NCBI GenBank assembly: GCA_030595255.1
Contig: JAUVDP010000003.1
Span: 1 to 57,980, forward strand
From: Mycoplasmatota bacterium
GTDB lineage: Bacteria; Bacillota_I; Bacilli_A; Izemoplasmatales; Izemoplasmataceae
DNA length: 57,980 nt
Direction of reading: 5' to 3'
Shown: in pieces, positions 39,657 to 56,189 of the stretch
Position numbering within the stretch: position 1 is the first letter of the stretch
How the letters are laid out: each line of letters opens with the position of its first letter
Translations under genes and position numbers: made by a program
Notes under the pieces: generated by a model
What the model saw: only the letters and a program-made list of their open reading frames with translations
The model's database searches: none
What the model was told of the DNA's origin: nothing

Positions 39657-40760
39657 TTATTCATATATTTGATTTAAATATTCAGATTCAAAGTTAGCAC
39701 TAAAATATATTGTTCCATCAAGTCCGTACCAAATAGCTTCAAGTCCATCAATACTATCTACAAATTCAATTCCTTCAGTTACCGTCATTATGAAGATAGC
39801 TGTTGAATATAAATCAGCGAGTGCAGGATCAGTAAATACAATACTTACAGAACGACTATTTCTTTCAGGAAATAGTGTTTCACCACTAATAATATGATGA
39901 TATATAACTCCATCAACTTCGAAATATTGTTGGTAATCACCACTTGTTACTAATTGTTCTCCGTCCCCTAGGTAAACAGTTGCGTAGTAAGGTAACTGTT
40001 TTGTAGGGTCAGTAACTGCGATATTAAAATCACCACTTTCTCTTGTAGGATGTGTTCCTCCTAAAGAGATATTTGATTCTCCGTTATTTAGTAAATATCC
40101 ATTTAATTCTAAACTATCTAGATACTCAATAATTACTCTTGAAATATAACCTTTACTTACTCCACCTAAATCAATACTCATAAACTCACTCATAGTTATT
40201 GTTAGATTTTCTCTATTCATTATAATGTCATCAGGATTAGTATATACATCTTCTGCCTCTAATTCAGCTAAAGTTGGTAATGCACAATTGTCTAATTCAT
40301 TACAATCTTCTCGGTAGTTATGCCAAACTTTAATAACTGGTCCAAGTGCAATATTAAATAAATCATCTACATCATCTTGATGATCTAGTGAAAACTCGAT
40401 TAAATCAAATAATTCTTCACTAATAACATGAATATCTGTAGGGTTATCATTTATTGTCTTAACGTTTGTTACTCCGTCATACAAATAATATTTATCACTT
40501 ATATTATTATAAAAAGAAATAATTCTTTCTACTTCATCATAAACATCAACATTATTAATTGTTGTATCTTCAGGAAGATATAACTTTAAAGTTACTACAG
40601 TATGAAGATAACTAGTCCAAACTGTATAACATTCTAAAGTAGTAGTTCCCTCAACGAGTGAACATTCTTCATTTATTATAGGTGGTTCTTCTGTTTCATC
40701 GCAAGCAACTAAGCTAAAGCTGATAAGTAGTAATAGTATTAAAAGTATTAATTTCTTCAT
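39657..40760 (-). CDS. apbE: ApbE, FAD:protein FMN transferase lipoprotein
   Basis: 367 residues from the ATG at 40760. A longer in-frame start (40949) is rejected because a GAGAGGA ribosome site and a lipoprotein signal MKKLILLILLLLISFSLVAC begin here. The ApbE fold shows SIDLGGVSKGYISRVIIEYL, the FAD loop LLNNGESNISLGG (GES where GGD/GGN is usual), VTSGDYQQYF, HHIISGETLFP and the metal-binding region ALADLYSTAIFIM. It transfers FMN from FAD to Thr/Ser of extracytoplasmic proteins such as RnfD, RnfG and FMN_bind lipoproteins, several of which are encoded within 16 kb. Confidence 0.92.
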   Translation of the reverse strand: MKKLILLILLLLISFSLVACDETEEPPIINEECSLVEGTTTLECYTVWTSYLHTVVTLKLYLPEDTTINNVDVYDEVERIISFYNNISDKYYLYDGVTNVKTINDNPTDIHVISEELFDLIEFSLDHQDDVDDLFNIALGPVIKVWHNYREDCNELDNCALPTLAELEAEDVYTNPDDIIMNRENLTITMSEFMSIDLGGVSKGYISRVIIEYLDSLELNGYLLNNGESNISLGGTHPTRESGDFNIAVTDPTKQLPYYATVYLGDGEQLVTSGDYQQYFEVDGVIYHHIISGETLFPERNSRSVSIVFTDPALADLYSTAIFIMTVTEGIEFVDSIDGLEAIWYGLDGTIYFSANFESEYLNQIYE

Positions 40761-40882
40761 ATTATCAGTCCTCTCAAAAAATATTATAGCAAATATTATT
40801 TTATTAGTAAAACAAAAGAGTAAAAAAAGAATGAAAAATACTAGCTTTCTTATACTACTACTACTTTTAAAGAAATAAAAAA

Positions 40883-40905
40883 AGCTAAGAGATTTTCTCT
40901 TAACT
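40883..40905 (-). terminator. second terminator behind higBA
   Basis: AGTTAAGAGA/TCTCTTAGCT (one wobble pair) with an AAA loop, followed by TTTTTTTATTT on the minus strand. Confidence 0.75.
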
Positions 40906-40919
40906 TCAGTATACGAAAA

Positions 40920-40938
40920 AGAAGCCTCAAAGGCTTCT
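40920..40938 (-). terminator. higBA terminator
   Basis: AGAAGCC/GGCTTCT with a TTTGA loop, followed by TTTTTC on the minus strand, 12 bases after the higA stop. Confidence 0.8.
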
Positions 40939-40949
40939 CTGTTGAGCAA

Positions 40950-41752: not shown

Positions 41753-41779
41753 AAAAGACTGAAAATTTTTCAGTCTTTT
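41753..41779 (-). terminator. terminator of FMN-binding-like lipoprotein gene
   Basis: A 13-bp stem AAAAGACTGAAAA/TTTTCAGTCTTTT followed by TTTTT on the minus strand; it overlaps the stop codon at 41778. Confidence 0.85.
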
Positions 41780-42407
41780 AATTATAGTTTTCTTCGTGAT
41801 ATGTAAGTAAAGTTTTTACAATTCTAATAATGTTATTAGTAGAAACACTACTAGAAGCATAGTCATCAATCATATCTTGTTCATCAATATTTGTAGTATT
41901 TTGAATACCGTGATAATCATCATTTGTAAACACACTAATTCCTTCAAAGTCAGTAAGTGTTTTACCTACTATCCAAGGGAAGAAGTCTGTTTCAAAATCA
42001 TCTAAAGTTTTGTTGTTTGTAGGAATTGGATCACTGTCTCCCCACATACCTCCTCTGTAATGCCCTTCAGGGTCTAACTCGAAAGATAAATAACTAATAT
42101 CGTTTGTATATTTGTTAATTTCAACATAAGCAACTTGCCAATAGTTTACGTTAGCATCACGACAAGTACAAGACAAGTATGATATTTGATACTTCACATA
42201 ATTTGTAGTTTCAAATTCAAATAAGAGATAAGCATCCTTTTCAGATTCAGCTCCATGTCCATCAACATGTAAAAATTTAATAATGCTGTCTGATGTAACT
42301 CCACCTGATTCACCTGTAACACATTCAGGTCCTACACATACATCATCACAAGCAGATAATGTAAATACAATTATTAATACTGAAAAAACTAGTAATATTC
42401 TTTTCAT
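41778..42407 (-). CDS. lipoprotein with FMN-binding-like C-terminus
   Basis: 209 residues. Signal and lipobox: MKRILLVFSVLIIVFTLSAC, Cys 20. The mature part has a C-rich start (DDVCVGPEC), a mid-region with a CTC pair, then GMWGDSDPIP and FPWIVGKTLTDFEGISVF. The end DDYASSSVSTNNIIRIVKTLL aligns with the FMN_bind ending D-x-(I/V)-(S/A)-G-A-T-x-S/T, whose Thr/Ser is flavinylated by ApbE; here the box is S-S-S-V-S-T. I infer a surface flavoprotein but cannot exclude a non-flavin relative. It lies two transcription units from apbE on the same strand. Confidence 0.6.
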   Translation of the reverse strand: MKRILLVFSVLIIVFTLSACDDVCVGPECVTGESGGVTSDSIIKFLHVDGHGAESEKDAYLLFEFETTNYVKYQISYLSCTCRDANVNYWQVAYVEINKYTNDISYLSFELDPEGHYRGGMWGDSDPIPTNNKTLDDFETDFFPWIVGKTLTDFEGISVFTNDDYHGIQNTTNIDEQDMIDDYASSSVSTNNIIRIVKTLLTYHEENYN

Positions 42408-42495: not shown

Positions 42496-43317
42496 TTATT
42501 TTACGGGTACAAAATCTTCAATAAGTTTTAATATATTATCAATTACAGTAGAATCCAATTGAGATATACTACTGTAGCCACTATCATCTAAATTAGAGAG
42601 AGAATTATGTAATTCAGTAAATGTAACTAGGTCGTATACGATATAATTTTCTAAAATGGTCAATTCAGTATTAACAGATATTAAATTAATCATATAACTA
42701 CTTCTAATAGAAGAATTATCATCATTAATTATATCAAATCTTATCTCAGATATCTTCCTACTCATGTCTAATTCACCATAAAATATATATGTTAATTCAG
42801 TGTTTTCATCGTAATAAGAGTTATAAAAAGTATCTCCAAAATAATAAGATCCATCACCTAAAACTTTATATTCACCATCATATTCGAAGAATCCGCCAAG
42901 AACAAATACGTTATCATATTCTAAATAAGTGAGTACATCTTTGATATATCCGCTTCGAATACATCCGTCAGCATATAAGAAAATAGTCTTGTCTTTATCG
43001 AATAATCTAAGGATTTCTTGTTCATTAATTATTTGGTCTGGAGTAAATATATATGTATCATTTCTATTGAATGCACGGTAATCTAAATAGTCAAAAAAGG
43101 GAATAACTTCAAATGAGTAAATAAACCCACTTAAAAATCTAGATTCAAAATTTCTTAAATCTATATATTGAACATCATCACGAAACATGTAATCATCTAG
43201 ATTTTCCATAGTAATTAAATCATCACTTTTTATCTCGATAATCTCTTCGTTATTTTGTACACAACCGAACATAAAAATAGTTTGTATAAGAACTATTTTA
43301 AGCAATAATTTTCTCAT
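42496..43317 (-). CDS. degenerate rhodanese-like lipoprotein
   Basis: 273 residues, a paralogue of the rhodanese/FMN-binding lipoprotein at 55350. The lipobox is MFGC (Cys 19). Shared blocks are YIDLRNFESRFLSGFI and VIPFFDYLDY. The active-site loop reads YADGCIRSGYIK where the paralogue has MCGSGTRAQYV: the catalytic Cys position is Ala, and a Cys sits three residues later. The C-terminal half keeps the domain length but lacks a good flavinylation box (GYSSIS). It is probably not a working sulfurtransferase; a binding or decoy role is possible. It points away from the hydrogenase operon. Confidence 0.72.
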   Translation of the reverse strand: MRKLLLKIVLIQTIFMFGCVQNNEEIIEIKSDDLITMENLDDYMFRDDVQYIDLRNFESRFLSGFIYSFEVIPFFDYLDYRAFNRNDTYIFTPDQIINEQEILRLFDKDKTIFLYADGCIRSGYIKDVLTYLEYDNVFVLGGFFEYDGEYKVLGDGSYYFGDTFYNSYYDENTELTYIFYGELDMSRKISEIRFDIINDDNSSIRSSYMINLISVNTELTILENYIVYDLVTFTELHNSLSNLDDSGYSSISQLDSTVIDNILKLIEDFVPVK

Positions 43318-43446: not shown

Positions 43447-43487
43447 AATGTCGGTAAGTTTTTTAAATACGAAATGAGGTGAACAGA

Positions 43488-43841
43488 ATGACAACAGAGT
43501 CTTTAAACGTTAATAAGTTATTCGAAAAATGGATTTTAGATGCAGATACTAAAATGGATGAAATAGATCTAGTTTTAAAGATTAAAGAGTATTTAGTATC
43601 TCAACACCCAGAGATATGTGGTAAATGTACACCATGTAGAGATGGGGTTGTCAGAATGGAGACATTACTTGATATGTATGTTGATGGTACAGCAACTCTT
43701 AAAACACTTAAAGAGTTGGAATCTCTTGTTTATAATTTAAGAGCTAGTAGATGTAGTGTTGGTTTAGATATTGGAAAGAACATAGAGGTTGTACTTGAAA
43801 ACAATTATCACGTACTATATAAACCTGTTAAGAAGTATTAA
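43488..43841 (+). CDS. stand-alone NuoF-type [4Fe-4S] domain protein
   Basis: 117 residues from the ATG at 43488 (GAGGTG upstream). It consists only of the C-terminal Fe-S domain of NuoF/HydB: HPEICGKCTPCRDGVVRMETLL then LRASRCSVGLDIGKNI, with the C-x2-C-x2-C...C ligands of cluster N3. The FMN/NADH-binding Rossmann and SLBB parts of NuoF are absent. It lies 11 bp ahead of hydA, so it probably serves as an electron-transfer subunit of the hydrogenase without an NADH site. I know no standard name for such a stub. Confidence 0.82.
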   Translation: MTTESLNVNKLFEKWILDADTKMDEIDLVLKIKEYLVSQHPEICGKCTPCRDGVVRMETLLDMYVDGTATLKTLKELESLVYNLRASRCSVGLDIGKNIEVVLENNYHVLYKPVKKY

Positions 43842-43852
43842 GGAGGAAGAAC

Positions 43853-45622
43853 ATGGCAACTATCACAATTAATGATATACCTGTAAAGGTAAAGAATGGC
43901 ATAACTATCCTTAAGGCTTGTGAAAGCATTGGAGTTAAGATTCCTACATTATGTTTTATAGAGGAAATTAATGAAATAGGCTTTTGTAGAATTTGTGTGG
44001 TCGAAGTTGAAGGTGAACAAGATTTAGTTTCATCTTGTAACACAGAAATTACTAACGGGATGGTAGTAAAGACAGATTCAAAACTAGTATTAGACAGTCG
44101 TGCTAATACTTTAAAATTGCTTGCAAGTAAACATAAATTCAACTGTTGGACATGTCCAAAAGATGGAGAGTGTGAGTTCTACGATTTACTTAAAACTTAC
44201 GATGTAGTGTTCGATCAATTTGGTCCTGGAATTGGAAGAGGTACTGAGGTTATTCCTGGGTCTGGAATTTCAATGGATCAATCAAAATGTATTTTATGTA
44301 AAAGATGTGTCGCAGTTTGTAAAGAAGTTGTAACTGCTAAAGTTTTAAAATTCAGAGATGATGATGGTATGAATCCTTTTGTTTCACCAACTGTCGGATT
44401 AGCATTTGATGAAACTGGATGTCTCTTTTGTGGTGAATGCGTAAAAGTTTGTCCTACTGGAACTCTTCATGAAACTGATCATGCTAGAAAAGTAGAAGCA
44501 ATGCTTAGAGATCCAAGCAAATTTGTTATTATTCAAGCAGCTCCTTCTATAAGAGCATCTATTGGTGAAGAATTCGGATATGTAGTTGGTACACCAGTTA
44601 AAGAAATTGAAGGTAAAATGTATAAAGCATTTAAGTTACTTGGCTTTGATAATATTACTGATGTAAACTGGGCCGCAGACTTAACTGTTATGGAAGAAGG
44701 AACTGAACTTATTGATAGACTACAAAATGGTGGTAAACTTCCAATGTTTACATCATGTTGTCCTTCATGGGTTAGATATACTGAATTATATAAACCTGAG
44801 TATATCGAAAACCTATCTTCAGCTAAATCTCCACATATGATGCAAGGATCGTTAATAAAACATTATTACGCTCCTAAATATTTAAAGAAAGATCCTAGAG
44901 AAGTATTTGTTGTTTCAGTAATGCCTTGTACTTCTAAGAAATATGAAATAGAACGCCCTGAAATGGAAAGTGATGGAGTACGTGACGTTGATGCTGTTCT
45001 TACAGTAAGAGAACTTGCTAAAATGATTAAGCGTAAAGGAATCGACTTTAGACACTTAGAAGATTATGTTCCAGTTAGCCCATTAGCTAAGTTTACTGGC
45101 GCAGGAACAATCTTTGGAGCAAGTGGTGGAGTTATGGAAGCATCACTCCGAACTGTTTCAGAAATACTTACAAAAGAACCTTTAGAACCAATTGATTATA
45201 AATTTATTATGGGTTCTACCCTTGAATATTCAAAAGGTGTAATTAAAGAAGCCACAGTTACTATCGCAGGTAACAAATTAAATATCGCAGTAGTAAACGG
45301 TGGAGTTGCTTTAAAAGAAATGTATAGAAGAATTGACGAAGGTAAAAAACAATATCATTTCATAGAATTCATGGCTTGTTCAGGAGGATGTGTAAATGGT
45401 GGAGGAATGCCTATCGTTTATGATTTACCTGCACATGAAGTAATTGTAAAAAGATCTGATGCGTTATATACACAAGATCAACAAGATTTACCACTTAGAA
45501 AATCTCATGAGAATGAAACAGTACTAAAAGCTTACGAAGAGTTTTTAGATAAACCTGGTAGTGAAGTATCACATAAACATTGTCATACTACATATTCTCA
45601 AAAAGAATATAGAAACGAATAG
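43853..45622 (+). CDS. hydA: [FeFe] hydrogenase, catalytic subunit
   Basis: 589 residues. In order: a [2Fe-2S] ferredoxin domain (CFIEEINEIGFCRIC...SSC), the His-Cys cluster NCWTCPKDGEC, and two [4Fe-4S] motifs (CILCKRCVAVCKE, CLFCGECVKVCPT). The H-cluster motifs follow: TSCCPSW (300-306, second Cys is the proton relay), MPCTSKKYE (357-365) and MACSGGCVNGGG (507-518), then the C-terminal small-subunit helix. All H-cluster Cys are intact, so it should evolve or oxidise H2. This is the M3-type group A layout found in bifurcating HydABC, but only a NuoF stub precedes it and rnfC follows 10 bp on. Maturases HydEFG are not in the window. Confidence 0.96.
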   Translation: MATITINDIPVKVKNGITILKACESIGVKIPTLCFIEEINEIGFCRICVVEVEGEQDLVSSCNTEITNGMVVKTDSKLVLDSRANTLKLLASKHKFNCWTCPKDGECEFYDLLKTYDVVFDQFGPGIGRGTEVIPGSGISMDQSKCILCKRCVAVCKEVVTAKVLKFRDDDGMNPFVSPTVGLAFDETGCLFCGECVKVCPTGTLHETDHARKVEAMLRDPSKFVIIQAAPSIRASIGEEFGYVVGTPVKEIEGKMYKAFKLLGFDNITDVNWAADLTVMEEGTELIDRLQNGGKLPMFTSCCPSWVRYTELYKPEYIENLSSAKSPHMMQGSLIKHYYAPKYLKKDPREVFVVSVMPCTSKKYEIERPEMESDGVRDVDAVLTVRELAKMIKRKGIDFRHLEDYVPVSPLAKFTGAGTIFGASGGVMEASLRTVSEILTKEPLEPIDYKFIMGSTLEYSKGVIKEATVTIAGNKLNIAVVNGGVALKEMYRRIDEGKKQYHFIEFMACSGGCVNGGGMPIVYDLPAHEVIVKRSDALYTQDQQDLPLRKSHENETVLKAYEEFLDKPGSEVSHKHCHTTYSQKEYRNE

Positions 45623-45632
45623 AGGTGATTAC

Positions 45633-46892
45633 ATGATAACTGAATACAGAAAATACATAGATCCAAGTAAAGTCTATATTCCATTAACTGATTTAGACCA
45701 TAAAATGGCTAATGTTAAAGTTGAAATTGGAGATAGAGTGCTTATTGGAGATATGGTCGCAGAAAAATTTAAAGGCAAAATAAAATCACCAGTACTTTCA
45801 ACTGTGAGTGGGAAAGTATTAGAGTTTAAAGATATGATAGATAGATACGGTAAAATAGTAGATCATATCGTAATTGAAAATGATAGATTATATGAAAAGA
45901 AACAATTTAAAACGTATGAACCAGTTCATACTAAAGAAATTAAAAAAGATACCATTAGTATTGGTATAGCACCCGCAGAAGTTAGAAATGTAATAAATGA
46001 ACTTGGATTAAGAAATGTTTCAGTAGATGGAATGTATACTGAATTAGCATTTGATTCAAGTATTAAATATGTTGTAGTTAACGCAATATTTATTAATGAA
46101 CCATTTATATCAACTGATTATGAGTTCTTAAAAGAACATAGTAATGAGATTGCTGATGGAGTTGACTTAATAAGTAGAGCTGGTAATTCAGAAAAAACTA
46201 TAATCTTAGTAGATAAATTTATGCCAGAAGATGCATTAGAAGAATTAGGAAAAGCAATAGTTGAAAGAGATATTGAAGTAATAACTATTGATTCTAAAAA
46301 AGTTGATGCAAGAGATTATAAAGTAATTAAAAAATTAGTTAAAGAACAATTAAGTATTAACTTATTAGACAACGGTGTTGTTTATACAACTGTTAGTGCT
46401 GCTAAAATGGTTCATGACGCAGTTAGATTAGGAATACCTGCAGTTACTAGGAAAATAGCAATAACTGGTGACGCACTAAAAATTAATGCTGTTTATGAAG
46501 TTAGAATTGGTACTAGATTTATTGATTTAGTTGAAGACCTAGGTGGATATAATGAAATCAAAAATATGAACCTACATATCGGATCATTCTTAACAGGTAT
46601 TCAACTTGATAATGATGACTTCGCTATAACTCAATCAGTTGATTCAATTAATGTAGCGGAATATAGAGGCGTTGATGAAGATGTATGTATTAAATGTGGA
46701 GACTGTAATGATATATGTCCCGCAGGAATACTACCTCAAAATATTATGGATGCTGAACTTAGAAATGTAAATTATAGAATAGTTGATCTATTTACTCATG
46801 AATGTGTTGAATGTGGACTTTGTACTTATGTATGTCCTTCTAAAATAAATGTACTTGAATGGGTACGACGTGCTAAACGTCGTGTCGGATAG
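45633..46892 (+). CDS. rnfC: RnfC, atypical: glycine-rich NADH/FMN loop missing
   Basis: 419 residues from the ATG at 45633 (AGAGGTGA; an upstream in-frame start inside hydA is rejected). The N-terminal barrel-sandwich domain has VKVEIGDRVLIGDMVA and SPVLSTVSGKVLEF. The middle should contain GxGGAxFPT, the NADH/FMN loop of RnfC/NuoF, but reads ELGLRNVSVDGMYTEL; the usual N-x-x-E-C-E-P box reads NAIFINEP. SLBB-like and Fe-S parts are normal: CIKCGDCNDICPAG and CVECGLCTYVCPS hold two [4Fe-4S] clusters. It is a membrane-associated subunit, second functional block of the hydrogenase operon. The loss suggests electrons enter from a partner other than NADH. Confidence 0.88.
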   Translation: MITEYRKYIDPSKVYIPLTDLDHKMANVKVEIGDRVLIGDMVAEKFKGKIKSPVLSTVSGKVLEFKDMIDRYGKIVDHIVIENDRLYEKKQFKTYEPVHTKEIKKDTISIGIAPAEVRNVINELGLRNVSVDGMYTELAFDSSIKYVVVNAIFINEPFISTDYEFLKEHSNEIADGVDLISRAGNSEKTIILVDKFMPEDALEELGKAIVERDIEVITIDSKKVDARDYKVIKKLVKEQLSINLLDNGVVYTTVSAAKMVHDAVRLGIPAVTRKIAITGDALKINAVYEVRIGTRFIDLVEDLGGYNEIKNMNLHIGSFLTGIQLDNDDFAITQSVDSINVAEYRGVDEDVCIKCGDCNDICPAGILPQNIMDAELRNVNYRIVDLFTHECVECGLCTYVCPSKINVLEWVRRAKRRVG

Positions 46893-46901
46893 GGGGCCAT
46901 C

Positions 46902-47993
46902 ATGAACTTTATAACTAAAAAAGCACCTATCGTAAATAATAGCCAACGTACATTTAAAAGATCAATCACATTACATTTCGCATTAATAGTAGTATCAATA
47001 GGTTCGATAGTTCTTAAAGCAATATCAGATGTTAATGATCCGATAGACTTAGCATTTAAAGCATTTTTAATGTTAGTTACTGGAGCATTAGTATCTGTGA
47101 TTATTGAAGTATTTTATGCAATATCAGATAAATCAACAAATAAGTTTGAATCATATAAAAGATTTGTAGATCCTATTAATACTGGATTAATAATCGCATT
47201 ATTACTCCCAGCTATTACACCGCTTTATGTTTTAATACTAGCTGTGTTTGTTGGAGTATATGCTGGTAAAATAGTCTTTGGTGGATATGGGTACTATATC
47301 TTTAACCCTGCACTAGTTGGTGTCTTATTTGCTCAAATATCATTTGAGACACAACTTGCAGTATCAGGTACACCACTTCAATTACTTAAAGATGCAATTG
47401 AAGGACAATCTTATACATTTGATTTAACTAATTTACTTATAGGTAATTATGATTCAATTGCTATTGGTAGTACTAGTGTAATACTACTAGGAATTGTATT
47501 CATATATTTATTAGTAACTAAAGTTATTGATTTTAGAATCTCAGGAACATTCTTAATTACAATTCTTCTATTAACTTTAGGAATTGGATTTGTAAATTAT
47601 TATGTTTCAGGAGATCTATCAGGAATTCATAACTATATGATAGTAAACATGGTTACAGGACTTACAATGTTTGGAGCAGTATTCTTAATAAGTGAACCTG
47701 TATCTAGTCCTACATCAAGAGAAACTAAAATTATATACGCAGTTGTTATAGCTGTCTTAATGATGTTAGTAAGAGTTCTTGGTAAACAAGTTGAAGGATT
47801 AGTATTTGCTATATTATTTGGTAATATGATTACACCATTTATTAATAGAACTGTTAGAAGAAGTGATAGAAAAGCACTTATTAAAACATTAATCTATTCA
47901 TTTGTGTTTATCGTATTTAGTGCGATATCACTTGGATTCATCCTTCAAGGTAGAGTTATTGATGTATTTGCCTCAGTAGGAGGTGTGTTCTAA
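46902..47993 (+). CDS. rnfD: RnfD, flavinylated membrane subunit
   Basis: 363 residues, about nine or ten membrane helices, the NqrB/RnfD family. YYIFNPALVGVLFAQISF is the conserved central helix. VSGTPLQLLKDA at about residue 158 matches the flavinylation box (T in SGTPL), where ApbE attaches FMN on the outer side. FISEPVSSPTSRETKI near 265 is also conserved. It conducts electrons and ions through the membrane with RnfG. Overlaps the rnfG start by one base. Confidence 0.93.
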   Translation: MNFITKKAPIVNNSQRTFKRSITLHFALIVVSIGSIVLKAISDVNDPIDLAFKAFLMLVTGALVSVIIEVFYAISDKSTNKFESYKRFVDPINTGLIIALLLPAITPLYVLILAVFVGVYAGKIVFGGYGYYIFNPALVGVLFAQISFETQLAVSGTPLQLLKDAIEGQSYTFDLTNLLIGNYDSIAIGSTSVILLGIVFIYLLVTKVIDFRISGTFLITILLLTLGIGFVNYYVSGDLSGIHNYMIVNMVTGLTMFGAVFLISEPVSSPTSRETKIIYAVVIAVLMMLVRVLGKQVEGLVFAILFGNMITPFINRTVRRSDRKALIKTLIYSFVFIVFSAISLGFILQGRVIDVFASVGGVF

Positions 47994-49474
47994 TGAAACA
48001 TATTAAAATTATATTTACATTAACACTTGTAGTTTTAACAGCAAGTGTAATGGTATTCTTTGTAGAAGCATTAACTACACCTATTATTGATGAATACAAT
48101 ATAGAGCAAGCTAATGCAGCTAAATTTGAAGTTTTACCAGGTTTAGTAGCTAATGATTTAAAAGATTTAAATCCAACACTCTCTGATTTTAGTAATACAT
48201 CTATTGAAGAGTTATTAATAATTGATGGTAAAGGGTATATTTATACCGCAGAGTTTTCTGGATATCAATCAAAAATTAGATATATAATTGGGATCGATTT
48301 AAATGGAACTTTAACTGGATTTAAAGTTTTAGTTCAAGGTGAAACTCCGGGTTATGGAGATACTATTAGTGATGAAGAATATCGTCTTCAATTTGAAGGG
48401 CTATCTACAACTGACGCTTTAAATGGAGATATTGATGATGTTGCTGGATTATCTGGTGCACCTATTACAATGGGAGCATTTAGAGATTCTTTAAAAGCGG
48501 TTATGGAATTCCATCAGTCTAATTATGAAGGTGTTGTAATTGAATCACCTGAAGAAAAATTAGAAAGATGGAGAGATGAAATCACTGTGGTTGACGCAAT
48601 ATTTACTGATGTATCAGCTGATTATACAATGGATGATACAGTTATAAAAATGGAAATAGCAAATGACGGAACAGATGATGTCGCAGTAGTTTATACAGTT
48701 CAATTTAGTGGATTTGTTACTACTGGATATGTTGAATATTTGATTTCGTTTGACTTAGATACAAATGATATTATTGGACTTAGAGTTACACATAATGATG
48801 AGTCTTCTGGTATTGGAACAATCTTATCAGATATTACATTTACTCCTCAGTTTGATGATATGTTACAAGCTGATGCATTAAGTGGAGATATCGATGAAGT
48901 TGCTGGTGGATCTGCACCTATTACATATAGTGCATTTATAGCTTCTCTTGAAGAAGTAATATTATTCCATCAAGCTATTTATCAAGTAGCAGCAAGAGCT
49001 GATAATATTGAAGTAGTAAACGCAGACTTATTACTCGCATTCCCTACTGGTATAACTTTTACAAGTGTATATACAGATTACGCATATAATGAATTTATTG
49101 GAAATATTTATGAAGTATATGACGGAAGTAGTGTATTACTTGGATATGTATATTATGTACAGTTAGAAGGTAGAGATGATGATATTAATTTCGTACTTGG
49201 AATTGATGTTGATGGTAATACTGAATTAATAGAAATCTTATTCGCAGCTGAAACATGGAATGAAGCTGAAACACATGGAACATATGATGGAAATAGTGGA
49301 GAATTCCCTGATACAGTATGGATTGATAATTTTGAAGGTGTATCAATACTTGATTTAATATTAGATCCTGTGGATGATATTGCTGGAGTTTCTACTACTA
49401 CAGGTAGTATGTTAGAAGCAATAGAAGAAGTATTACAGTATCATTTATTTGAATTAGTAGGAGGTGCAAACTAA
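47993..49474 (+). CDS. rnfG: RnfG with three tandem FMN-binding repeats
   Basis: 493 residues, more than twice the usual RnfG length (about 180-220). One N-terminal membrane helix is followed by three FMN_bind repeats on the outer side. Their flavinylation-type boxes are VAGLSGAPITMGAF (about 150-163), VAGGSAPITYSAF (about 303-315) and IAGVSTTTGSML (about 463-474). Each follows a D-(D/E)-(V/I)-A-G start and precedes a helix ending (F/Y)H. The canonical box is SGAT-x-T/S; the first repeat keeps SGA-x-x-T best. Up to three covalent FMN could form a flavin wire. Spacing to rnfD and rnfE is one base of overlap each. Confidence 0.9.
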   Translation: MKHIKIIFTLTLVVLTASVMVFFVEALTTPIIDEYNIEQANAAKFEVLPGLVANDLKDLNPTLSDFSNTSIEELLIIDGKGYIYTAEFSGYQSKIRYIIGIDLNGTLTGFKVLVQGETPGYGDTISDEEYRLQFEGLSTTDALNGDIDDVAGLSGAPITMGAFRDSLKAVMEFHQSNYEGVVIESPEEKLERWRDEITVVDAIFTDVSADYTMDDTVIKMEIANDGTDDVAVVYTVQFSGFVTTGYVEYLISFDLDTNDIIGLRVTHNDESSGIGTILSDITFTPQFDDMLQADALSGDIDEVAGGSAPITYSAFIASLEEVILFHQAIYQVAARADNIEVVNADLLLAFPTGITFTSVYTDYAYNEFIGNIYEVYDGSSVLLGYVYYVQLEGRDDDINFVLGIDVDGNTELIEILFAAETWNEAETHGTYDGNSGEFPDTVWIDNFEGVSILDLILDPVDDIAGVSTTTGSMLEAIEEVLQYHLFELVGGAN

Positions 49475-50112
49475 TGCCTAGACGTGAAAAATCAGTCGGA
49501 GAAATCTTCTCTAATGGATTATTTAAACAAAATCCAGTATTCGTACAGTTCTTAGGTATGTGTCCTACACTCGCAGTTACAGGTAGCGTTGAAAACGCAC
49601 TTGGAATGGGAGCTGGGGTTACGTTTGTATTAGTACTATCAAATGTAGCAATTTCTTTAGTAAGAAAATATACACCTAGAGAAGTTAGAATACCAATCTT
49701 TATCGTAATAATAGCTTCACTAGTTACAGTATTAGAAATGATTATGAGAGCATTTGTACCTGATCTTGCAGCATCACTTGGAACATTCCTTAGTTTAATA
49801 GTTGTTAACTGTTTAATCTTAGGTAGAGCAGAAGCGTTTGCTTCTAAGAATGGTCCAATTAAAAGTGCATTTGATGGATTTGGAATGGCAATTGGATTTA
49901 CCGGTGGTATATTATTAATTGCATTATTCAGAGAAGTACTAGGTGCTGGAACATTGACAATATGGGGAGATTTACAATTTCAACTTATCCCTGAAATTTA
50001 TCAAATAGATATTTTAGTTAAATCAGCTGGAGCATTTTTAGTGTTTGGGATATTAGTATCTCAAATAAATAAATATAGAATGAATAAAGCTGATAGAAAC
50101 GAGGTGGTATAG
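49474..50112 (+). CDS. rnfE: RnfE membrane subunit
   Basis: 212 residues, six membrane helices of the RnfA/RnfE/NqrD/NqrE family. NPVFVQFLGMCPTLAVTGSVENALGM carries the conserved Cys of helix 1, and SLIVVNCLILGRAEAFASK the Cys of helix 4; with RnfA these ligate the intramembrane [2Fe-2S] cluster between the subunits. Start overlaps the rnfG stop; rnfA begins one base after its stop. Confidence 0.95.
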   Translation: MPRREKSVGEIFSNGLFKQNPVFVQFLGMCPTLAVTGSVENALGMGAGVTFVLVLSNVAISLVRKYTPREVRIPIFIVIIASLVTVLEMIMRAFVPDLAASLGTFLSLIVVNCLILGRAEAFASKNGPIKSAFDGFGMAIGFTGGILLIALFREVLGAGTLTIWGDLQFQLIPEIYQIDILVKSAGAFLVFGILVSQINKYRMNKADRNEVV

Positions 50113-50113
50113 T

Positions 50114-50713
50114 ATGGAATATATCGCTATAGCATTTGGAGCTATCTTCGTTAATAATGTTATCTTACAACAGTTTTATGGATTATGTCCTTTCCTTGGT
50201 GTTTCTACTAAGAAAAGTAGTGCCTTATCAATGGGAATGGCAGTTACATTCGTTATTACATTATCAACTATAATTGCATTTGCAATATATTATTATGTAC
50301 TTGTACCTTACGATATTGCATATTTATCAACAATTGTATTTATCTTAGTAATTGCTTCATTTGTACAATTAGTTGAAATGTTTATTAAAAAGTTTAGTGC
50401 TACACTATATAGTGCTCTTGGTGTTTATTTACCACTTATCACTACAAACTGTGCAGTACTAGGTGTCGCAATTGATATCACAGTAAATGGTGGAAAAATC
50501 TTTGATGGTAATACTGAACCTTCGATAATGATGGTTACAATATACGCTTTAGGTATTTCACTAGGTTATAGCTTAGTTATCTTCTTATTCTCAGCTATCC
50601 GTGAAGAAATGGATGCATATCCTATTAAACGTAACTGGCAAGGAATTCCTATTGCTTTAATTACTGCGTTTATTATGGCTATGATATTTATTGGATTCGG
50701 AGGTATCGTCTAA
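50114..50713 (+). CDS. rnfA: RnfA membrane subunit
   Basis: 199 residues, six membrane helices, inverted topology relative to RnfE. NNVILQQFYGLCPFLGVST and YLPLITTNCAVLGVAI hold the two cluster Cys that complete the intramembrane [2Fe-2S] site with RnfE. Length and pattern are fully normal. The stop codon overlaps the rnfB ATG by one base. Confidence 0.96.
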   Translation: MEYIAIAFGAIFVNNVILQQFYGLCPFLGVSTKKSSALSMGMAVTFVITLSTIIAFAIYYYVLVPYDIAYLSTIVFILVIASFVQLVEMFIKKFSATLYSALGVYLPLITTNCAVLGVAIDITVNGGKIFDGNTEPSIMMVTIYALGISLGYSLVIFLFSAIREEMDAYPIKRNWQGIPIALITAFIMAMIFIGFGGIV

Positions 50714-51027
50714 TGGAAGGTATCGTTGTTGTTATAATACTTGCTTTAGTAGTCTCAGTATTACTTGCGGCGTTATTATCATTTGCTTCTGTCGCATTAT
50801 ATGTTGATGAGGATCCTAGACTACAAGATATTGTTGATTTACTTCCTAATCAAAACTGCGGACTTTGTGGTAACCCTGGTTGTAAAGCAATGGCTCAGGC
50901 TATCTTAGATGAGGATGCTAAATTATCGCAATGTAAACCAGGTGACTTAGAGATGAGAGAACTTATTAAAGAGTACTTGGAAGAAAGTCCTGATGAATCA
51001 GGAGAGTTTGTAAAAGTTAAAATGTAA
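50713..51027 (+). CDS. rnfB: RnfB, minimal form without ferredoxin domains
   Basis: 104 residues against about 180-330 in other bacteria. An N-terminal membrane helix (about 4-28) is followed by the RnfB Fe-S motif: LLPNQNCGLCGNPGCKAMA and a final Cys in LSQCKPGD, one [4Fe-4S] cluster. The gene then stops; the ferredoxin-type domains with two or more [4Fe-4S] clusters that accept electrons from ferredoxin are missing and are not found downstream. The stop is followed by the operon terminator, so this is not a frameshift. The entry point for electrons must lie elsewhere, perhaps RnfC or the hydrogenase. Confidence 0.9.
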   Translation: MEGIVVVIILALVVSVLLAALLSFASVALYVDEDPRLQDIVDLLPNQNCGLCGNPGCKAMAQAILDEDAKLSQCKPGDLEMRELIKEYLEESPDESGEFVKVKM

Positions 51028-55349: not shown

Positions 55350-56189
55350 TTAATCAGCTAGTCCGATTGCTTCTAGCCATGCAACTTTGAAACCATTAAC
55401 AGTAATTGTAACACCAGCTAAATCATCAACATCATCAAATTTATCATCAACGATAGTCCATGCAGTGTCCCAACCTTGGTTAGCAACGATAGCAGCAGCT
55501 AATTCATCAGCTTCTTCAGCCCATGTAAATCCACTAGTTAATACATATGCGTCACCAACAGCTTGTTTAGTTGAAGTCTCATATACTGCATCAAATACTA
55601 CAGATTGAATTCCACCAGCATCATTAATTATAACAGTTACCATGTAATCAGTAGCTTCATCATATCCAAAGTATGAACCTGGAGTGTAATCTCCTTTAGC
55701 GTCCATATTGATGTAGAATGATTCTCCACCAAGGACAACAGCTTCTCCGTCAGCTTCTAAGTATGCTGCGTATCCACCAATGTTAATTACATTTTCATAT
55801 CCTAATGATAATAATGCATCCATAACATATTGAGCTCTAGTTCCAGATCCACACATTAATAAAATAGTTTTGTCTTCGTTGAACATTTCTCTCATACTTC
55901 CAACAGCACCTATTTCACCAGTGTCGAAAACCCAACCACCGTTTGCATCACTTAAGATACCTTGATATTTTAGATAGTCAAAGTAAGGAATTGCTTCAAA
56001 TCCTTCAATATATCCAGCTTTCATTCTTTCATCAAAGTTTCTTAAATCGATGTATTGAACGTCACTTCTTCCTAAAAATCCGTCTAATTCTGCCATAGTC
56101 ATTGTTTCTGGTAAATCTTCTTCACCGTTACAGGCAGTTAACGTAAATGATAAAGTTAATACAGCTAGTAAAACTAATAATTTTTTCAT
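55350..56189 (-). CDS. rhodanese/FMN-binding fusion lipoprotein
   Basis: 279 residues. Lipobox LTAC (Cys 20). The rhodanese domain (about 30-150) has YIDLRNFDERMKAGYIEG and the active loop LLMCGSGTRAQYVMDAL with the catalytic Cys and Arg. The FMN_bind-like domain (about 160-279) contains TKQAVGDAYVLT, a Trp-rich ANQGWDTAW and the box DDLAGVTITVNGFK, where the Thr of VTIT matches the ApbE-flavinylated position. A surface sulfurtransferase with a covalent flavin would link sulfur or persulfide chemistry to the extracytoplasmic electron chain. Codon use is richer in G and C than its neighbours, suggesting high expression. A consensus promoter lies at 56228-56256. Confidence 0.82.
   Translation of the reverse strand: MKKLLVLLAVLTLSFTLTACNGEEDLPETMTMAELDGFLGRSDVQYIDLRNFDERMKAGYIEGFEAIPYFDYLKYQGILSDANGGWVFDTGEIGAVGSMREMFNEDKTILLMCGSGTRAQYVMDALLSLGYENVINIGGYAAYLEADGEAVVLGGESFYINMDAKGDYTPGSYFGYDEATDYMVTVIINDAGGIQSVVFDAVYETSTKQAVGDAYVLTSGFTWAEEADELAAAIVANQGWDTAWTIVDDKFDDVDDLAGVTITVNGFKVAWLEAIGLAD

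Follow-up and report, generated by a model that had tools for sequence, protein, structure and literature searches.

A 57,980-nucleotide stretch of contig JAUVDP010000003.1 from a Mycoplasmatota bacterium of the Izemoplasmataceae, hereafter the window (contig label G000:C42; 1.60 Mb draft genome, 89.7% complete), carries at positions 43479–51027 a single packed operon of eight genes, in which a small iron–sulfur (Fe-S) protein related to NuoF, the stub, and an [FeFe]-hydrogenase, HydA, precede a full rnfCDGEAB set with its Rnf–Nqr membrane core, as identified by family profiles. We read this module as a specialised Rnf paralogue (‘Hyd-Rnf’), in which the end of RnfC that reacts with NADH (reduced nicotinamide adenine dinucleotide) became a HydA–stub Fe-S arm and cytoplasmic electrons would be delivered to extracytoplasmic flavins, a reading to which we give slightly better than even chances. 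The exchange of the NADH end of RnfC for the HydA–stub arm is well supported by the protein sequences; the docking of the parts, the order and outward direction of electron flow, the identity of the donor and the coupling to ion transport are what we infer. The genes, separated by gaps of −1 to 11 bases in line with the tight packing noted in an earlier, sequence-only reading, are as follows (FMN, flavin mononucleotide).

43479–43841, + strand: stub, the NuoF N3 domain, with one [4Fe-4S] domain (PF10589, 48.3 bits; alternative ATG start at 43488)
43853–45622, + strand: [FeFe]-hydrogenase HydA, group A, with a NuoG-like N terminus (PF02906, 296 bits; NF040763, 703 bits, cut-off 765)
45633–46892, + strand: RnfC without the FMN/NADH site, two [4Fe-4S] clusters kept (TIGR01945, 199 bits, cut-off 246)
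46902–47993, + strand: RnfD, DxxAGAT flavinylation motif deleted (alignment)
47993–49474, + strand: RnfG, three FMN-binding repeats (FMN_bind; DDVAGLS, DEVAGGS, DDIAGVS)
49474–50112, + strand: RnfE, [2Fe-2S] cysteine pair intact (family match and ligand check)
50114–50713, + strand: RnfA, [2Fe-2S] cysteine pair intact (family match and ligand check)
50713–51027, + strand: RnfB, short, a transmembrane helix and one [4Fe-4S] domain (family match; class-wide form)

The cytoplasmic end of RnfC and its neighbours

In Rnf structures, the FMN of RnfC has the NuoF-like domains on one side and the ferredoxin domain on the other, and electrons travel from the riboflavin of RnfD over two RnfC clusters and this FMN to NAD+ (PMC9588780). 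The window RnfC aligns xVxVDGL--YT at the position of GLGGSGFPT in the other RnfC of the same genome, and the RnfC proteins of its clade have lost five motifs of the FMN/NADH region, namely GLGGSGFPT (GxGGxGFPT), ECEPY, YPQGxE, GELP and GGPMMG. The loss of the GxGGAxFPT loop pointed out in the sequence-only reading thus extends to the whole site. Both CxxCxxCxxxCP motifs, which hold the [4Fe-4S] pair, are kept in every clade member, and no part of the module RnfC is better conserved than its Fe-S domain. The glycine-rich loop occurs in none of 20 full-length module sequences and in all 54 canonical ones, including three that escaped the loop pattern and proved on inspection to be close variants (GLGGSGFS and GLGGSDYP). 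In the RnfC tree, the 20 loop-less sequences fall on one side of a branch and the 54 canonical sequences on the other, with a Shimodaira–Hasegawa-like approximate likelihood ratio (SH-aLRT) support of 100. The window protein matches PF13375 and, from profile position 21 onwards, PF01512, and its fold model finds Rnf RnfC as best match (E 6e-28), followed by the flavin-free NqrA. Removal of the last RnfC step alone leaves an Fe-S protein that ends at a cluster.

The stub contains PF10589 as the sole domain found, with no FMN or NADH domain; its cysteines C47, C50, C53 and C92 are invariant in 15 orthologues and its best match in the PDB is HydB of the T. maritima HydABC complex, so that by sequence it corresponds to the N3-cluster domain of NuoF/HydB and to no other part of that protein. 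Outside the module-bearing genomes no solo stub was found, the matches there being full-length NuoF/HydB proteins apart from a split HydB in genome G107. The window HydA, whose PDB matches include CpI and A. woodii HydA, retains all 11 key H-cluster residues, with motifs L1–L3 and the Fe-S domains in place.

In complex I and HydABC, N3 passes electrons to the [2Fe-2S] cluster of NuoG/HydA. Given this precedent, and because families and fold match give the module HydA a NuoG-like N terminus and RnfC a NuoF fold, the simplest assembly would put RnfC in place of the HydB flavin domain, with the stub as adaptor and HydA outermost. With the stub docked on the NuoF-like face of RnfC, electrons would move from the HydA clusters to stub N3, the RnfC [4Fe-4S] pair, the RnfD riboflavin, the RnfG flavins and finally extracytoplasmic lipoproteins. 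The HydA–stub–RnfC route proposed in the sequence-only reading remains the best reading, since RnfC no longer has its NADH end and is constantly accompanied by the stub and HydA.

HydA and the stub might instead be a separate soluble enzyme that is co-transcribed with this Rnf, RnfC having decayed because its complex takes up or gives off electrons at RnfG/RnfB only. The contact between HydA, stub and RnfC is a prediction, and some HydA relatives, CpI for one, function as monomers, but a stub is useless without a NuoF-like partner, of which the operon encodes none, and the Fe-S domain of a decayed RnfC would hardly be its most conserved part. The stub–HydA–RnfC order is, moreover, unbroken in two families even where the H-cluster is dead, and we consider this explanation improbable.

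Distribution of the module and the fate of the H-cluster

The module recurs in at least 21 genomes of two families, most of which also hold a canonical rnf cluster elsewhere. Of the 90 genomes examined in the order, 18, belonging to six genera, encode an RnfC orthologue (51–100% identity), one of them as a fragment at a contig edge, and these orthologues are cleanly separated from canonical RnfC (about 30% identity). In these 18 the order stub–HydA–RnfC–RnfD–RnfG–RnfE–RnfA–RnfB is constant as far as the contigs extend, a canonical rnf cluster is present too, and no HydA adjoins the canonical copy. Fourteen loci emerged from a scan covering 84,980 species, and every one lies in an Izimaplasma/Tenericutes-type record; the RnfC of the Candidatus Izimaplasma HR2 assembly is 96% identical to that of the window. 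Among the 14, the divergent locus L089 (RnfC 38%) has the same stub–HydA–RnfC–RnfD series, and a class-wide search added G103, with the whole operon, and G113, both in another family, f5. A phylum sample of 392 genomes contained no further members by RnfC, and a search with a stub model added G091. The synteny holds without exception across two families and 21 loci, in which RnfC identity falls to about 32–38%, and the recurrence of the same ordered gene set indicates that the operon is more than a chance arrangement.

The window genome itself holds further copies of both components. Contig C73 carries another complete rnfCDGEAB, with GLGGSGFPT in RnfC and a one-domain RnfG of 186 amino acids, and the idea that the window cluster is the only Rnf of the genome was rejected on this account. 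A second HydA adjoins a 602-residue NuoF/HydB-type protein on C39, and C9 encodes a further NuoF-type protein. Two of the findings that the sequence-only reading named as refuting it are thus present, a second complete rnf cluster and full-length NuoF-type partners; they mark the window cluster as a specialised paralogue, for which a separate role is still compatible with them, and leave open what that role is. A third RnfC match, on C34, was set aside, since by inspection it is PduS-like and lies in an apparent microcompartment gene set (L005, 8184–13501), amid shell-protein-like repeats and a DERA-type aldolase. Elsewhere, two loci of genus g17 (L068, L070) have an extra Rnf/Nqr-like gene set upstream of the canonical rnfC, directly beside the canonical cluster, with an RnfA 52% and an RnfB 34–36% identical to those of the window.

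Across the module, HydA has intact ligands for all four of its N-terminal clusters at 22 of 22 loci, which does not hold for the H-cluster. All key residues are present at six (the window, L036, L039, L040, L041 and L050). Two f5 proteins with a TSCSP variant known from elsewhere (PMC3787301) are otherwise intact, which brings the intact or near-intact proteins to 8 of 22. In L037 and L038 the sole change is Cys299Ser, at a position where CaHydA tolerates only Cys or Asp and other residues severely impair activity (PMC3485046). The remaining 12 have lost further H-cluster residues, among them cubane ligands in three (L049, L091 and G091). Proteins that have lost the site show a more rapid divergence of the H-domain than of the Fe-S domain (ratios of identity 0.46–0.84, as against 0.80–0.99 for intact pairs), and on a weakly supported Fe-S-domain tree the H-cluster site needs a minimum of five state changes. 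Most genomes with such a HydA also encode further, well-scoring hydrogenases; those of G091 and G058 are only low-scoring or partial. From the lost H-cluster, the fixed Fe-S ligands and these other hydrogenases, we conclude that the arm has been retained where H2 catalysis at the HydA site is probably gone. H2 turnover as the core role of the complex, as first proposed, is weakened by the 12 losses and the two Cys299Ser proteins, in which the arm persists.

Genome G091, of family f5, holds a variant operon (L129:449-10259) that reads, in one direction, RnfD-G-E-A-B-NuoE-NuoF-HydA′-stub-HydA-RnfC, followed by a ferric-reductase-like protein, CydA and CydB. HydA′ lacks the H-cluster ligands, HydA is degenerate and RnfC is loop-less, while RnfD keeps MGAT and DPVTSP and RnfG is single. 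From its gene content, this operon resembles a natural experiment in which an NADH module, NuoEF, has taken over from the H2 end, and it argues suggestively for HydA–stub as the electron port of RnfC; coming from one genome, it is not proof.

The donor may accordingly differ among relatives: in the window species it would be H2, given the intact H-cluster residues, or else ferredoxin acting by way of HydA. Relatives whose H-cluster is dead would use ferredoxin, whereas G091 probably draws on NADH by way of NuoEF. A history in which an [FeFe]-hydrogenase was recruited as the arm of an ion-translocating Rnf in place of its NADH site, the H2 site then being lost repeatedly with the wiring fixed and an NADH module (NuoEF) regained in one lineage, would make the module an independent and ongoing parallel to the way complex I arose from a membrane-bound hydrogenase, with electrons going to the cell exterior; we judge the chances of this to be evenly balanced.

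The outer flavin end and the membrane core

The canonical RnfD motif DxxAGAT[AP]L, with close variants, is reduced by deletion to -TPL in the window’s family and, in three f5 members, to YP[IL], and in the window RnfD the conserved Asp of DPxTSP is a Glu. Module RnfG proteins contain 3–5 repeats, each ending in DxxxGx[ST], where canonical copies in the same genomes have one; the window RnfG is modelled as a transmembrane helix followed by three repeats of a β-sheet plus helix, so that the tripling seen earlier is real. RnfG with several flavins has been described before (PMC8238504). A canonical Rnf cluster at L106 (G288) encodes an RnfG of 1434 amino acids, which suggests a very long chain of flavin domains. 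Upstream of the window operon, and transcribed divergently from it, lie three genes:

39657–40949, − strand: ApbE-type FAD:protein FMN transferase (PF02424, 163.9 bits)
41778–42407, − strand: small lipoprotein with a conserved SCTCR motif and no Pfam family, co-inherited with the module
42496–43317, − strand: rhodanese-like lipoprotein with a putative catalytic cysteine (ADGCIRSG; PF00581, 19.1 bits, below the cut-off)

The window thus combines an RnfG of more than one FMN_bind domain with a nearby ApbE, its covalent flavins being a prediction. ApbE and both lipoproteins recur upstream at related loci whose contigs extend to them, and of the 18 genomes in the window’s family that have the module, 17 encode a full-length rhodanese orthologue, the contig of the 18th being cut there. 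The enlarged outer flavin end of the sequence-only reading is therefore borne out, together with two features that it overlooked, the RnfD motif loss and the ApbE and lipoprotein genes. In several genomes without the module, related rhodanese and lipoprotein genes have thioredoxin-like proteins and an FMN_bind lipoprotein of one domain as neighbours; at L095, L096, L097, L098 and L100 the pair occurs with one or both of these, perhaps as another extracytoplasmic redox system. Comparing neighbours with and without the module, the recurring partner of the two lipoproteins is an extracytoplasmic flavin domain. A second rhodanese-like lipoprotein, 36% identical to the upstream one, lies 3′ of the operon (55578–56180, − strand), and several related loci have similar downstream genes.

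Electrons might also run inwards, an outside reductant or an ion gradient driving them through RnfG, RnfD and RnfC to HydA to yield H2 or reduced ferredoxin. Rnf is reversible (PMC9588780) and nothing in the sequence fixes the direction, but the loss of the RnfD flavinylation motif resembles that reported for NQR/RNF-like complexes without the NqrB/RnfD-type site, which are proposed to work outward (PMC10979944), and no outside donor enzyme is encoded nearby; we think inward flow very unlikely.

All cluster ligands of RnfA, RnfE and RnfB are conserved in the module. The window RnfB has 104 residues and comprises the transmembrane helix and one Fe-S domain, without ferredoxin domains, as the sequence-only reading had noted. 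We reject this truncation as part of the rebuilding: the canonical paralogue on C73 is equally short (101 residues), and RnfB is 89–126 residues long across the class (L101–L120), without the extra ferredoxin domains of clostridial RnfB. Being shared with the canonical copy and with the majority of Rnf complexes in the class, the short form gives no support to the claimed loss of ferredoxin docking. The RnfB/AE branch, with its ligands kept, may feed RnfG too or supply ion coupling.

In the main rival reading, the module is an Ech analogue, a ferredoxin:H+ oxidoreductase running RnfB–RnfA/E–RnfG–RnfD–RnfC–stub–HydA, which would evolve H2 and, in the manner of Rnf with NAD+ as acceptor, export Na+ or H+, the extra RnfG domains being a side branch. 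The potential of H2, near −414 mV and higher at low H2 pressure, would suit H+ as acceptor instead of NAD+; the cluster ligands of RnfA, RnfE, RnfB and RnfC are all intact, as are the H-cluster residues of the window HydA. This reading is difficult to square with the 12 of 22 loci that have lost H-cluster residues and the two with the Cys299Ser change impairing in CaHydA, or with the missing covalent-FMN motif of RnfD, and it leaves the multi-flavin RnfG and the co-inherited lipoproteins unexplained; we regard it as unlikely, if clearly less so than the soluble enzyme or inward flow.

Several points weigh against the specialised paralogue with a HydA–stub arm that we prefer. Docking of HydA, stub and RnfC is deduced from synteny and the HydABC and complex I precedent, and the RnfC model is only moderate (predicted local distance difference test, pLDDT, 74), with a C-terminal ferredoxin domain below 50. 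The kept RnfA, RnfE and RnfB ligands would allow a second ferredoxin entry or a full ferredoxin–H2 loop, and the predicted flavinylation of the window RnfG relies on motifs unlike the usual [ST]GAT. What stands of the sequence-only interpretation is the arm and the outer flavin end; a loss of ferredoxin docking through the short RnfB is not supported.

Comparison with known systems

Rnf is defined by ferredoxin:NAD+ chemistry. By core and fold the module belongs to the Rnf superfamily, and as it fails two defining features of classical Rnf it is best called a variant. Two Rnf complexes and hydrogenases have been mentioned for Izimaplasma, unlinked (PMC6256511), and our literature search, which did not cover the main Izimaplasma genome paper (Skennerton et al. 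2016) and so leaves room for an earlier mention, returned no description of a hydrogenase-linked Rnf.

The module shows that an Rnf core, much as complex I did, can acquire new wiring on its cytoplasmic side. It is also a candidate for the route by which little-known wall-less bacteria of marine sediments could export electrons from H2 or ferredoxin, and in these bacteria a HydA annotation need not mean H2 metabolism. An intact H-cluster, loss of the proton-transfer cysteine, loss of [2Fe]-site residues, loss of cubane ligands and NuoEF in the operon stand side by side in the family, so that the evolution of a hydrogenase into a respiratory arm can be tested in living relatives.

With the Rnf complexes of C. 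tetanomorphum (7zc6), A. woodii (9eri) and A. vinelandii (8ahx), the module shares six subunits, their order and fold, the RnfA/E [2Fe-2S] cluster, the RnfC [4Fe-4S] pair and the RnfB Fe-S domain; it differs in lacking the RnfC FMN/NADH site and the RnfD flavinylation motif, in its multi-domain RnfG and in having HydA and the stub in the operon. HydABC (7p5h, 7q4v, 8a6t) has the same kind of group A HydA with a NuoG-like N terminus, and the stub corresponds to its HydB N3 domain, whereas the module operon lacks the HydB FMN/NADH domain and HydC and has RnfC at the place of HydB. NqrA of Na+-NQR is likewise an RnfC relative without FMN (PMC9588780), but lacks the [4Fe-4S] pair that the module RnfC keeps. 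Multi-flavinylated RnfG and NQR/RNF-like outward systems (PMC8238504, PMC10979944) resemble the module in multi-FMN RnfG with ApbE and in an RnfD-like subunit without a flavinylation site; the module, in contrast, keeps six Rnf subunits and has HydA and the stub as donor arm, and the operon encodes no two-subunit system of NqrB/RnfD fused to an NqrF-type NAD domain. Like Ech/Mbh and complex I, it would join a membrane ion pump to a hydrogenase, but with an [FeFe] enzyme and an Rnf core, family profiles finding in the operon neither a [NiFe] large subunit nor antiporter-like membrane subunits. The likeness to these complexes extends to the parallel loss of the H2 site with the Fe-S wiring retained, an outcome like that which gave respiratory complex I.

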